Positions 6,994 through 11,488 of a stretch of 36,487 nt of DNA are shown here, piece after piece. A program made the position numbers and the translations under genes. Where the stretch lies: assembly GCA_944332635.1 (NCBI GenBank), contig CALVKI010000038.1:1-36487 (forward strand), in the 5' to 3' direction. Within the stretch, counting starts at the first letter, position 1, and every line of letters begins with the position of its first letter. Source of the stretch: an uncultured Bacilli bacterium (GTDB lineage: Bacteria; Bacillota_I; Bacilli_A; RF39; UBA660). The notes below the pieces were generated by a model. That model was not told where the DNA came from and did not search any database. It saw nothing but the letters and a program-made list of their open reading frames with translations.

Positions 6994-7980
6994 CTACCTT
7001 TCTATATTTTCTTTCATGTATTCAAGCATTGAAACAACTCGATCATATTCCATTCTCTTGGGACCAATAATCGCAAGTGTCCCCTCATGATTACCATTCT
7101 TAAATCTAGTCTTAATAACAGTAACATCATCATCAATTTTACTTTCACTACCAATATATACTTTAATGTTATTATCATCATCTTCTTCTATTTTGTGAAG
7201 AATTTCTGGATTTTCAAGTTTACTAAATACAGACTGAATTTTTTGAATATTACCAAATTCAGGTTGTGTTAAAAACTTATTTTTCCCAACAACATTAACT
7301 TCTTGGTTAGTAAAATCACTAAACACATGATAGAAGGCATTATATAGTTGTTCATGTTGCTTAACATATTTACCAATAATAGGTTTTACTTCATATTCTA
7401 GTTTTATACTAACTTCATCAATAGGAGTACCAGCAATCAAATTATTAATTAAATTTACTGTCTTTTTAACTTCATCTAAAGATATATCTTGCAAACGAAT
7501 ATTTTTATGTTCAACATGACCTCTATCAGTAATTACAATTACAATCATACTAACATCATCAATAGGAACTACTTCTATTTGTTTAAGAAGATTCTCATGA
7601 GAAGTACTACCAAGTACTACTGTAGTATAATTGGTCATATCAGAAATTACCTGTAAACTCTTTACTATAACATCTGATAAAGCAAGCTGTTGATTATGAA
7701 AAACCGTTTGGAGTTTAAGCATATCCTCTCCAGTCATTTTTTTGGGTTCCATTAAATGATCTACATAATAACGATATCCATCTTCGCTTGGAACACGACC
7801 AGAAGATGTATGAGTCTTCTCCAAAAGTCCAGCATCTTCTAATGCAGACATTTCATTACGAACAGTTGCACTGGAACATTTCAATGTTTTAGATATAGTC
7901 TTAGAGCCAACTGGAATTGGATTTTTAATATACTTTTCAACAATCAACTTTAAGACTTTACATTGCCTATCCGTCAACAT
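6994..7980 (-). CDS. hrcA: Heat-inducible transcription repressor HrcA
   Basis: About 328 residues from the chosen ATG at 7980, which begins MLTDRQCKVLKLIVEKYIKN and has an AGGAGG site just upstream. The open frame continues 20 codons further, but those codons lie in the promoter/CIRCE region. The N-terminal winged helix has SATVRNEMSALEDAGLLEKTHTSSGR spanning the recognition helix and is followed by the GAF-like HrcA domain. HrcA binds CIRCE and represses class I heat-shock genes; GroEL normally keeps it active. It is the first gene of the operon and so autoregulated. No groES-groEL is in this window. Confidence 0.96.
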   Translation of the reverse strand: MLTDRQCKVLKLIVEKYIKNPIPVGSKTISKTLKCSSATVRNEMSALEDAGLLEKTHTSSGRVPSEDGYRYYVDHLMEPKKMTGEDMLKLQTVFHNQQLALSDVIVKSLQVISDMTNYTTVVLGSTSHENLLKQIEVVPIDDVSMIVIVITDRGHVEHKNIRLQDISLDEVKKTVNLINNLIAGTPIDEVSIKLEYEVKPIIGKYVKQHEQLYNAFYHVFSDFTNQEVNVVGKNKFLTQPEFGNIQKIQSVFSKLENPEILHKIEEDDDNNIKVYIGSESKIDDDVTVIKTRFKNGNHEGTLAIIGPKRMEYDRVVSMLEYMKENIER

Positions 7981-7997
7981 AATTTTGCCTCCTATTG

Positions 7998-8024
7998 CTA
8001 GCACTATTATTATACGAGTGCTAA
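7998..8024. promoter_or_regulatory. CIRCE operator 1 (between promoter and hrcA)
   Basis: CTAGCACTA, a 9-base spacer and GAGTGCTAA match the CIRCE consensus (TTAGCACTC-N9-GAGTGCTAA); the right half is exact. It lies just downstream of the -10 box, where bound HrcA would block initiation. Confidence 0.93.
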
Positions 8025-8028
8025 TTGT

Positions 8029-8057
8029 ATTATATGACACATATTAGCACTTGTCAA
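8029..8057 (-). promoter_or_regulatory. Sigma-A promoter of the heat-shock operon
   Basis: On the minus strand TTGACA (8052-8057), exactly 17 bases, then TATAAT (8029-8034): a full consensus promoter. Transcription would start near 8022, inside CIRCE 1. The -35 box overlaps CIRCE 2. Such a strong promoter needs tight repression, which two operators could give. Confidence 0.93.
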
Positions 8058-8078: not shown

Positions 8079-8105
8079 AAAAAAAAAGCAAGTTTATTAA
8101 CTTGC
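8079..8105 (-). terminator. Terminator of the adhesin gene
   Basis: On the minus strand a 7-bp stem GCAAGTT/AACTTGC with a 4-base loop is followed by nine T. The stop codon of the adhesin gene lies inside the hairpin, and the transcript ends just before the hrcA promoter region. Confidence 0.88.
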
Positions 8106-9827
8106 AACAACAAATTTCCAGCGCTGCGTATGTTGACCAGAAGACGTTAGACTATAAACAGCATCATATGTTGGATTATAACTTGCTTGAACACTAGTAG
8201 TGTTATATGGTGAAATTGTATAATACCCATTTCCAAGAGGTGTAATTGTAACATTCTGACTATCAGCAGAGAGACTAGGATCATTTAAATAAGCTAAAGA
8301 ATCACTAGAATCGAAAAGAATAATATCTTTCTGATATTTAATATTTTGAATATGATAATATTCCCCGTTCTTATAAACACGCCAAAGTTGATCACCTTCA
8401 CCAGTAAATAATTGCAATGCAGCAACATAATTATCACCATCTGATCGTAACGTTAATACTTTATTATTACTATAGGAAGAAAAAATATAATAATTGCCCT
8501 CAGGTAATTCTTCTGTCGAATCGTATTGAAAAGTATTATAGCGAATTCCATCAGAAGTTTCATATTCGTTATGTTGACCGCCAGTCGAAGTATCAGTACT
8601 CACACTTCGTAACATAGTCCAAACCCTCCTATCGGCACTAACTGACAACTCATGTCCAATAACCCTAGACGAAGTATTTGTATAAGAATAACTATGCCAT
8701 ACTGCTATTTCATCTAAATTCATAGTATCGCTTAATTGATAAATAACACATTTTTTTCCGCTACCATCCATTCTAGCATAAACATCTGGAACATCTGCAT
8801 CACCATCATTTATAATGGAGTCATCGCTAAGAGTTCCACCAGTTGCTTCTACAAAACTAAGCTCTTGTCTAACCCCATTTTTAATAGCTTGAATCTCTAT
8901 CCATTTAGCAACATTAGTAATATTATTAGGATTAGTAACACAATCACGAATATACATAACATTGTTCAACTTAGCATTACTATTTCTTCTTGGTGGATTA
9001 TCAATATCATTATCGGATACTTTAGTAATTTTAAACTTTCCAACACCAGAATTTACCCCAGAAAGCATCATTCCATCATAAAAAACAGGAGTATATTCTT
9101 CTAACACAGGAGTACCGTCCTCATTGTATTTACCTCGATGTATATTAAACACTTCATAGGTTTGCCCAGTAGAAGCTTTTACTCCCGCATAACCAGCAAT
9201 ATAAGAGGATCCACCTCCTGTACTAGTAGAACTTCCATATCCTGCCCCACCTAAAGAACCAGCTGTACATGGTAACTGAATACCTGGACTATTACCATTA
9301 CCAGCAATGGCACCACCACTACCATAAGAACCTCCACCAGCAGCAACCATAATACGAGAACTTAAAGATTTTTCATCATCCCATTCTCCAGAAATCAAAC
9401 GAACATCCGTAGCTCCACCACCAGCACTACCACTATTAAATGTACCATGTACCCCTCCCTGAGCACCTACATAAAAATATAAGGAAGAATTAGCCTCCAA
9501 ATAAATAACCCCTGAAACATATGAGCCTTTTCCTGCAGAAACACTAGGTCCCCCAGAAGCTCCCCATAACTCTATCTTATACCAACCATTTTCAGAAACA
9601 ATATATTCTCTTCCCTGGGCATCTACTACTCCACCTATATAATCTCCACCTGTATTAACAACACTCAAACGATTTAATTCATCTTCAACTTTATCTACAA
9701 ATGTAACTGTATTTTGACGATTAGTACTTAAATTACTAAATAGAGCAAAAACAATCAGTAAAGACATTATCATCAGACCATACAATAATGTTGAAATAGC
9801 AAAACCCCGATTATTTAACTTTTTCAT
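8097..9827 (-). CDS. Prepilin-like glycine-rich adhesin with discoidin-like and ricin-like domains
   Basis: 576 residues, probably a surface adhesin that binds glycans. Residues 1-7 are basic, then GFAISTLLYGLMIMSLLIV begins a single hydrophobic helix (8-31). This resembles a type IV prepilin with cleavage after Gly8, although the usual Glu at position 5 of the mature chain is replaced by Thr. A short linker leads to a glycine-rich domain at about 60-265 (ELWGASGG, GGGATDVRL, AAGGGSYGSGG) resembling the ALK/LTK glycine-rich family. Residues 280-415 look like a discoidin/F5-8C sugar-binding fold (LDEIAVWHSYSYTNTSSR, then LSVSADRRVW). Residues 445-575 look like a ricin-type beta-trefoil with QLW (480-482) and QRW (568-570). 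Its ATG has AGGTG upstream, 27 bases after rsmD. No prepilin peptidase or assembly gene is present here. Confidence 0.75.
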   Translation of the reverse strand: MKKLNNRGFAISTLLYGLMIMSLLIVFALFSNLSTNRQNTVTFVDKVEDELNRLSVVNTGGDYIGGVVDAQGREYIVSENGWYKIELWGASGGPSVSAGKGSYVSGVIYLEANSSLYFYVGAQGGVHGTFNSGSAGGGATDVRLISGEWDDEKSLSSRIMVAAGGGSYGSGGAIAGNGNSPGIQLPCTAGSLGGAGYGSSTSTGGGSSYIAGYAGVKASTGQTYEVFNIHRGKYNEDGTPVLEEYTPVFYDGMMLSGVNSGVGKFKITKVSDNDIDNPPRRNSNAKLNNVMYIRDCVTNPNNITNVAKWIEIQAIKNGVRQELSFVEATGGTLSDDSIINDGDADVPDVYARMDGSGKKCVIYQLSDTMNLDEIAVWHSYSYTNTSSRVIGHELSVSADRRVWTMLRSVSTDTSTGGQHNEYETSDGIRYNTFQYDSTEELPEGNYYIFSSYSNNKVLTLRSDGDNYVAALQLFTGEGDQLWRVYKNGEYYHIQNIKYQKDIILFDSSDSLAYLNDPSLSADSQNVTITPLGNGYYTISPYNTTSVQASYNPTYDAVYSLTSSGQHTQRWKFVVAS

Positions 9828-9854
9828 ATAATCACCTATCTTACAATTATTTTA

Positions 9855-10400
9855 TCACACATAATGCAAGATAGCCACCCATTTATCACCATATTTTTTA
9901 CTCTTTACAATTTCTAAACAAGAAGGATAAATTATTTTCTCTAATTTATCACTTTCAACAACAATAATTCCTTTTTTATTTAAAACCCCTAATTCTACAA
10001 TTCTATCTACACTAAGCTCTACCAATTTTGTTTGATATGGAGGATCTATAAAAATAATATCAAACAAAATATTATTATCTGAAAATTTTTTTAAAGCTTT
10101 AAGATAATCCATGCAAAAAACCAAAGCATCTTCAGCATCTAAATTCTTTAAATTATTCAAAATAATATTACAAGCCTTTCTATTTTTATCAACTAAATAA
10201 ATCCCTTTCGCCCCTTGACTCAACGCCTCTATACCTAGATTACCACTACCAGCAAACAAATCAAGAACTAAGGCATCATTAAGAGAAGGCTGAATCATTG
10301 CAAATAAACTTTCTTTAACCCTATCCATAGTAGGTCTAGTACCAGAAATATTAAATCCTAACAAATTTCGCCCCTTATATTTTCCACTAATTATTTTCAT
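9855..10400 (-). CDS. rsmD: 16S rRNA (guanine-N2)-methyltransferase RsmD
   Basis: 181 residues from the ATG at 10400, which begins MKIISGKYKGRNL and has AGGAAAG upstream. The frame stays open to 10424, but those codons overlap the ribosome site. LVLDLFAGSGNLGIEALSQG is the SAM-binding Rossmann motif and FIDPPYQ is the catalytic NPPY-type motif for exocyclic amino methylation. By family it methylates G966 (E. coli numbering) of 16S rRNA in the small subunit head. It corresponds to Bacillus ylbH and follows ylbF by 4 bases, keeping the Bacillus gene order. coaD, the usual next gene, is replaced here by the adhesin gene. Confidence 0.93.
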   Translation of the reverse strand: MKIISGKYKGRNLLGFNISGTRPTMDRVKESLFAMIQPSLNDALVLDLFAGSGNLGIEALSQGAKGIYLVDKNRKACNIILNNLKNLDAEDALVFCMDYLKALKKFSDNNILFDIIFIDPPYQTKLVELSVDRIVELGVLNKKGIIVVESDKLEKIIYPSCLEIVKSKKYGDKWVAILHYV

Positions 10401-10404
10401 ACTA

Positions 10405-10692
10405 TCACTCTTTCCTACAATCAACTTTATGGTTTAACTCTTTAAATTTTTGATTGATACCAAAAATAAAAATATTAACATCTAACTCCTTTTTCTTATA
10501 TGCCAAAAAAGAAGGCGAATTTTCGATCTCCTTTTTTAATTTTTCTGAAGGGTAAGTTTTATACTGCTCAATTTTTGAAACAATTTCATTATTACTAAAT
10601 ATTTTCTTTTTTTCTTTCACATATTGAATAATAACTTCTTCTTTAGAAATTTCCTCTTTTAATTGTTCTAACTTTTCTATTAACTCTCTCAT
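10405..10692 (-). CDS. ylbF: YlbF-family protein
   Basis: 95 residues, almost all helix, with repeated heptads (KLEQLKEEISKEEVIIQYVK) and the LAYKKKELDVNIFIF segment typical of the YlbF/YmcA family. In Bacillus subtilis YlbF (RicF) joins YmcA and YaaT in an Fe-S complex that works with RNase Y on mRNA maturation and affects competence and sporulation. A cytoplasmic role with RNase Y is inferred by family only. The identification leans on position, directly upstream of rsmD and downstream of ylbD-ylbE. The stop is TGA followed at once by TAG. No clear ribosome site precedes the ATG, so coupling to ylbE is likely. Confidence 0.75.
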   Translation of the reverse strand: MRELIEKLEQLKEEISKEEVIIQYVKEKKKIFSNNEIVSKIEQYKTYPSEKLKKEIENSPSFLAYKKKELDVNIFIFGINQKFKELNHKVDCRKE

Positions 10693-10937: not shown

Positions 10938-11309
10938 TTAATCATCAAAATGCTGATATAATGGACGAGGTTCATAAGTAGTTGCTGAACTACTTTGTCC
11001 AATTCCTATATCTTTTAGCACTCCCAAAGCTTTTTGAATATTAGTAATACCCTTCTGAACAGAATCTAAATCTATATTTCTTATATTACTAACCAAATCT
11101 TTAAGACTAGTAGAAAGTTCAGAAACCTCTGTTTCTTTATTAACAGCATTGACACTACTCGAAGAAAAATAATCATTCCAAATACTGCTATTTTCACCAT
11201 AAATCTCGTATAGCTCATACAATCTTTGCCAACTAGTCTTCCCATTCATAACATAATTTGCAAGTTCTGTATGCCCCCTCGCAAAAGACTTAAAACTTTC
11301 TTTCGACAT
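10938..11309 (-). CDS. ylbD: YlbD-family protein (putative spore coat family)
   Basis: About 123 residues from the ATG at 11309 (TTG and GTG codons lie 4 and 3 codons upstream, but GGTGG before the ATG favours it). SFKSFARGHTELANYVMNG and SWQRLYELYEIYGENSSIW match the YlbD pattern of a short motif near FxRxHP followed by TWQxLYEEWxxxGE. The C-terminus ends RPLYQHFDD, like the RPLFQH end of Bacillus YlbD. The middle is Ser-rich and then helical. The family is named as a putative coat protein, but its wide spread makes a non-spore role likely. It is the first gene of the ylbD-ylbE-ylbF-rsmD unit. Confidence 0.75.
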   Translation of the reverse strand: MSKESFKSFARGHTELANYVMNGKTSWQRLYELYEIYGENSSIWNDYFSSSSVNAVNKETEVSELSTSLKDLVSNIRNIDLDSVQKGITNIQKALGVLKDIGIGQSSSATTYEPRPLYQHFDD

Positions 11310-11488
11310 ATTTACCACCAATACAATATATGCAAAATAAATAATAATATAATCTCTTCTTCAAAAACAAAGCACTTTCTAAGTACAAAACATATTATAA
11401 CATTATAATAAATATTAAAAAACTAAACGAAAAAAAAGAAATCAAAAACTAAGTAAGACTATTATATGTATAATTCATAAGTTAATTC

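Follow-up and report, generated by a model that had tools for sequence, protein, structure and literature searches.

A candidate Glu5-less modular pilin-like protein with putative glycan-binding modules in a family of uncultured gut Bacilli

Here, we describe a 576-residue protein, encoded on the reverse strand of a 36,487-nucleotide stretch of DNA from an uncultured Bacilli bacterium (the window), which we read as a modular type IV pilin-like subunit without Glu5 that would be cut by the prepilin peptidase PilD and would display putative glycan-binding modules, probably at the tip of a pilus. We give this reading a probability of roughly 0.58. For a wider proposal we regard the odds as about even: that the protein belongs to a lineage-wide Thr5 pilin-like class (GFA[IVF][ST]T) kept in one old slot between rsmD and hrcA in a large, uncultured family of gut Bacilli, where it occurs as a bare helix of around 50 residues or as a carrier of binding modules and would form a subunit dedicated to the tip or to surface display, in contrast to the minor pilins of pil clusters.

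The gene (8097-9827, reverse strand) is a real coding sequence with an ATG start, preceded at a distance of 5 nt by AGGTG, a likely ribosome-binding site (9833-9837, reverse strand). As orthologs are found in 15 of 16 genomes searched in the genus, its own included, the reading frame did not arise by chance. It lies between two conserved neighbours on the same strand, rsmD upstream (9855-10424; PF03602 at C38:9870-10400), whose stop codon is 27 bp before the ATG of the pilin-like gene, and hrcA downstream (6994-8040), which begins a run of heat-shock genes with grpE, dnaK and dnaJ. Small YlbD-coat-like and YlbF-like proteins are encoded upstream of rsmD (10938-11321 and 10405-10692), where relatives have similar small open reading frames, and a 162-residue frame at 2163-2651 has no Pfam match at E ≤ 0.001. 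The genome from which the window comes measures 1.45 Mb in 112 contigs and is 71% complete. One congener (L033) seems to carry the same protein as Candidatus Faecimonas gallistercoris (L094; class Bacilli), a name that stems from chicken gut metagenomics (PMC8035907), and the other relatives are metagenome-assembled genomes with isolate names that indicate the guts of goat, sheep, water deer and rabbit.

The protein begins with MKKLNNRGFAISTLLYGLMIM..., in which a hydrophilic leader, MKKLNNRG (residues 1-8; 9804-9827, reverse strand), ends in the putative -1 glycine of a prepilin cleavage site and is followed by a hydrophobic stretch (FAIST...), as in class III signals. The leader resembles those of Glu5 prepilins in the same genome. 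Across an alignment of 38 proteins, Gly-1 (Gly8), Phe+1 (Phe9), Ala+2 and Tyr+8 are invariant, and residue +5 is threonine in 37 and serine in one, but glutamate in none. Mean pairwise identity is 78% over residues 1-18, 50% in the glycine-rich domain described below, 35% in the discoidin-like part and 28% in the trefoil; judged by sequence, the N-terminus is the best conserved part of the protein. Residues 9-55 (9663-9803, reverse strand) form a single predicted helix, hydrophobic at first and then polar and conserved, with the +5 threonine at residue 13. It spans residues 7-55 in an AF2 model, comparable to the alpha1 helix of about 50 residues in pilins, at low confidence (pLDDT block means of 49-77), and the protein has no globular pilin head.

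When compared profile to profile with 15 N-termini of Glu5 prepilins, the N-terminus aligned Gly-1 on Gly-1 (96.7%, E 4e-10), although, with two N-termini this short and hydrophobic, the likeness counts for less than this E-value suggests. A preliminary description, made from the sequence before any searches, had called the N-terminus a prepilin-like anchor with Gly8 and a hydrophobic helix but no Glu5, which the sequence and the alignment bear out, and had proposed searching the genome for proteins with the same N-terminus; over all six frames of the genome, the N-terminal profile matches only the query itself and three Glu5 prepilins. Neither PF07963 (N_methyl) nor the NCBIfam prepilin models match the protein, and it is not among the seven Glu5 prepilins that PF07963 finds in its genome. 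The absence of Glu5 excludes a canonical pilin while leaving room for a capping one, as GspK, PilK and PilA lack this residue as well.

Three modules follow the helix. The first, an ALK/LTK-type glycine-rich domain (GRD) at approximately residues 79-271 (9015-9593, reverse strand), is matched by PF12810 (ALK_LTK_GRD) at residues 79-182 with an E-value of 5e-19 and 69.6 bits, against a curated cut-off of 24.5, and in all 38 relatives. The second, at approximately residues 285-432 (8532-8975, reverse strand), is discoidin-like (F5/8 type C, CBM32-like): the F5_F8_type_C_2 model (PF22633) stays below its cut-off in the query (E 0.036) and reaches E ≤ 0.01 in 20 of the 38 relatives (best 5.2e-9), and profiles connect the segment to 4lks and 2j1a/2j7m. 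Because the segment modelled alone gives only weak fold matches (Z 8.2 for the best, 6eon, and 5.4 for the next, 3hnm), and a fold-only search with it returned nothing strong, this assignment rests mainly on profiles. The third, an R-type (ricin-like) beta-trefoil at residues 440-576 (8100-8510, reverse strand), falls just below the cut-off of RicinB_lectin_2 in the query (24.1 against 25.6 bits) and is matched at E ≤ 0.01 in 33 of the 38 relatives (best 5.6e-14); VIA-align superposed residues 434-576 on HA33/HA1-type trefoils with a Z-score of about 20 (rmsd 1.7, 133 aligned). Together with this predicted fold, two QxW motifs mark it as an R-type trefoil: QLW at residues 480-482 (8382-8390, reverse strand), with Q in 37 and W in all 38 of the relatives, and QRW at residues 568-570 (8118-8126, reverse strand), with Q in 26 and W, F or Y in 37.

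The AF2 model, built from 38 sequences, has a mean pLDDT of 88 and shows beta domains after the single helix; in Foldseek searches with it, the glycine-rich domains of LTK and ALK and trefoils rank first. A profile of 12 orthologs compared with solved structures matched ThreeFoil at 2e-9 and a galactanase's R-type trefoil at 1.5e-6; CBM32-like chains followed at 2e-4 to 0.03, and the match to the ALK homolog scd-2 was weak (0.26). The order of domains and the two QxW motifs given in the preliminary description hold, and the predicted folds agree with its family assignments for the trefoil and the GRD, with a weak fold match in the discoidin-like part. It is misleading in presenting the ALK/LTK-like domain as best known from animal receptors: the GRD occurs in 52 of 117 genomes of this bacterial family, often on classical prepilins, with fusions to Glu5 prepilins in many genera, and Clostridioides phages, including those of C. 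difficile, encode GRD-like glycine-rich proteins that share 37-41% identity with the query across about 85 residues. Three genomes (G051, G079 and G123) have 13 to 21 GRD matches each, several of them in tandem gene arrays (for example, G123:C3:966847-980947). In the open-access literature, we found no paper on the ALK/LTK-type GRD in bacteria.

The machinery that the proposed processing calls for is present. On contig C80, the genome encodes PilC (T2SSF, 2.5e-51), PilD (L023:8636-9490; A24_N_bact, 1e-23; Peptidase_A24, 9e-12) and one of its Glu5 prepilins, so the absence of a prepilin peptidase and pilus machinery, which would have spoken for a plain anchor, is not what we see. No PilB-type extension ATPase was seen in this 71% complete genome; full-length PilB (T2SSE at E < 1e-100) is found in 13 of 15 congeners, the exceptions being G001 and G013. 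A prepilin peptidase occurs in 36 of the family's 38 genomes in a class-wide sample, and the remaining two carry PilB and Glu5 prepilins.

The position of the gene extends well beyond the genus. In most of 53 loci found by protein search, across many genera, it sits after rsmD and before hrcA-grpE-dnaK. Among 60 genomes of the family, the gene behind rsmD is a Glu5-less protein of this type in 13, a classical Glu5 prepilin in five, each from another genus, and something else in 42. Random placement of five Glu5 prepilins in this slot has a binomial P of about 4e-5 to 1.4e-3, with the caveat that slots are not independent. Some of the Glu5-less slot proteins comprise 55-70 residues and little beyond the helix (G047, G108 and G024; also G019 and G269), a form found in five rows of an rsmD tree. 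Stand-alone Glu5-less helices of this length adjoin rsmD at L146:1474-1647, L147:1501-1674, L145:733-900, L230 and L237, and some end in two-cysteine tails (for example, ACVQDKTC). In the rsmD tree, nearly all of one clade of 52 rows (100/89) belongs to the Glu5-less type, which has a few occurrences elsewhere, and the five Glu5 slots belong to a different set, of 13 rows (94/87, drawn open), that also contains three Glu5-less ones; the automatic slot labels miss L100, L133 and L135 (leaders EKGF or QKGF), which are of the Glu5-less type. The tree does not give the order of replacement in the slot.

Published work indicates how such a protein could function. The glycine is critical for processing and Glu5 is dispensable, and Glu5 mutants form no homopolymers but can join mixed filaments (PMC4471445); tip complexes contain a capping subunit without Glu5 (PMC10191384); and Streptococcus sanguinis has a PilA without Glu5 and a lectin-bearing modular pilin, PilC, modelled at the tip (PMC9934059). 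On these grounds, we propose a PilD-cut, Glu5-less display subunit, most likely at the tip. A PilD-type peptidase would remove MKKLNNRG between Gly8 and Phe9 on the cytoplasmic side, and the remaining helix of about 47 residues would be retained in the membrane and become part of a type 4 filament or of a short pseudopilus. Without Glu5, the subunit would lack the usual salt bridge to its neighbour and would thus be likely to sit at the tip or to be present in few copies, as is supposed for GspK/PilK and S. sanguinis PilA; its exposed GRD, discoidin-like domain and trefoil would bind host, dietary or bacterial glycans. In favour of this reading stand the invariant residues of the N-terminus and its likeness to Glu5 prepilins, the presence of PilD, PilC and prepilins, the fixed slot that Glu5 prepilins or bare helices occupy in other genera, and the pilin-linked loci of G020 and L097/G097 described below. 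Counting against a pilin are the lack of a prepilin-model match and of a pilin head, the location outside the pil cluster of its own genus, the PilB missing from this incomplete genome, the low confidence of the helix and one congener, G013, to which we return below.

Archaeal class III signals often lack Glu5. The main rival, which we hold to be unlikely but deserving of weight, builds on such systems: the protein would be processed by PilD but stay out of filaments, acting alone or in a small assembly as a membrane-held sugar-binding protein. The archaeal bindosome sets a precedent, with sugar-binding modules behind a class-III-type signal, but it is archaeal, and a type 4 filament-like machine was shown to be needed for its surface localisation (PMC4471445). 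That Glu5 is missing throughout the family of proteins, that the gene has a housekeeping neighbourhood and lies outside the pil cluster in its own genus, and that three large modules may be hard to pack into the body of a filament all fit a non-filament protein; the helix-only forms, which carry no binding module, do not. Nor does G020, where a Glu5-less protein with GRD and discoidin-like domains lies inside a pilin operon beside pilB, one of three pilin-like genes divergent from it, together with a Glu5 prepilin-like protein with a GRD and a small Glu5 one. The same pilB-linked operon encodes a prepilin-like protein with alanine in place of glycine at -1 (NNKAFSLVELL; L079:6170-6700). Elsewhere, a 62-residue Glu5-less protein stands in a run with Glu5 prepilins (G073), and a 691-residue modular Glu5 prepilin directly follows the homolog (L097/G097).

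Less probable still is a plain, uncleaved signal anchor that only tethers a surface lectin to the membrane and resembles prepilins by accident. The missing Glu5 and PF07963 match would suit it, as would G013, a 92% complete genome that has an ortholog and in which searches found neither full-length PilB nor PilC nor PilD. A mere anchor has, however, no need of an invariant Gly-Phe-Ala and Tyr+8 in a protein that elsewhere drifts to 28% identity, and the equivalent chromosomal position is taken by Glu5 prepilins in other genera. We considered and rejected G013, G086 and G106 as genomes that keep the protein after losing the pilus machinery: all three retain Glu5 prepilins (two in G013), and G086 and G106 also PilB, which makes incomplete assembly the likelier and simpler explanation. 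The N-terminal profile has no match in G106.

A T2SSE match on contig C7 of the window's own genome was rejected as PilB, as it is a CpaF-like ATPase; behind it, two membrane proteins without a Pfam match are TadB/TadC-like by gene order (G000:C7, L024:5608-9560), and the locus is probably a second pilus system of the Tad/Flp type. Although these genes make a subunit of that apparent type IVc system conceivable in place of one of the PilB/PilC/PilD pilus, we consider it very improbable, given that the leader and the residues after it resemble the PilD-type prepilins of the genome and, judging by the Flp motif, would not resemble Flp pilins.

Modular pilins are already known and diverse (PMC8179133), and the proposed display subunit resembles several known systems in part. 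S. sanguinis PilC and PilB (PMC9934059, PMC8179133) are likewise monoderm proteins in which a short pilin-like N-terminus carries lectin or adhesive modules, whereas their N-terminus has a recognised class III signal (with Glu5 in PilC) and their modules are Ig and concanavalin-like lectin domains and vWA, compared to Thr5, GRD, discoidin-like domain and trefoil without a pilin head here. GspK/PulK, PilK and S. sanguinis PilA share a class-III-like leader without Glu5 and are minor pilins of tip complexes, but are encoded with other minor pilins; the present protein differs in its rsmD-hrcA location, its lectin modules and a +5 position fixed as threonine. Within the family, Glu5 prepilins with a GRD (for example, L053, L059, L068 and L073) also place this domain behind a pilin N-terminus, yet theirs reads GFTLIEL or GFTVVEL and keeps Glu5. 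The extracellular glycine-rich (TG) domain of ALK/LTK belongs to the same Pfam family and has a similar predicted fold, whereas the bacterial GRD lacks the receptor kinase context and is probably a spacer or a binding module. Our search of the open-access literature returned no Thr5 class that occupies a fixed chromosomal slot and has both bare-helix and multi-lectin forms, and no GRD on pilins.

If the proposed reading is true, it would give mostly uncultured gut Bacilli a defined adhesin and place the ALK/LTK glycine-rich fold in a bacterial setting. It would also offer a natural series, from the bare helix through GRD and GRD with discoidin-like domain to GRD with discoidin-like domain and trefoil, and, in one and the same slot, with either Glu5 or Thr5; the parts played by Glu5 and by module grafting in type 4 filaments could be tested on it directly.
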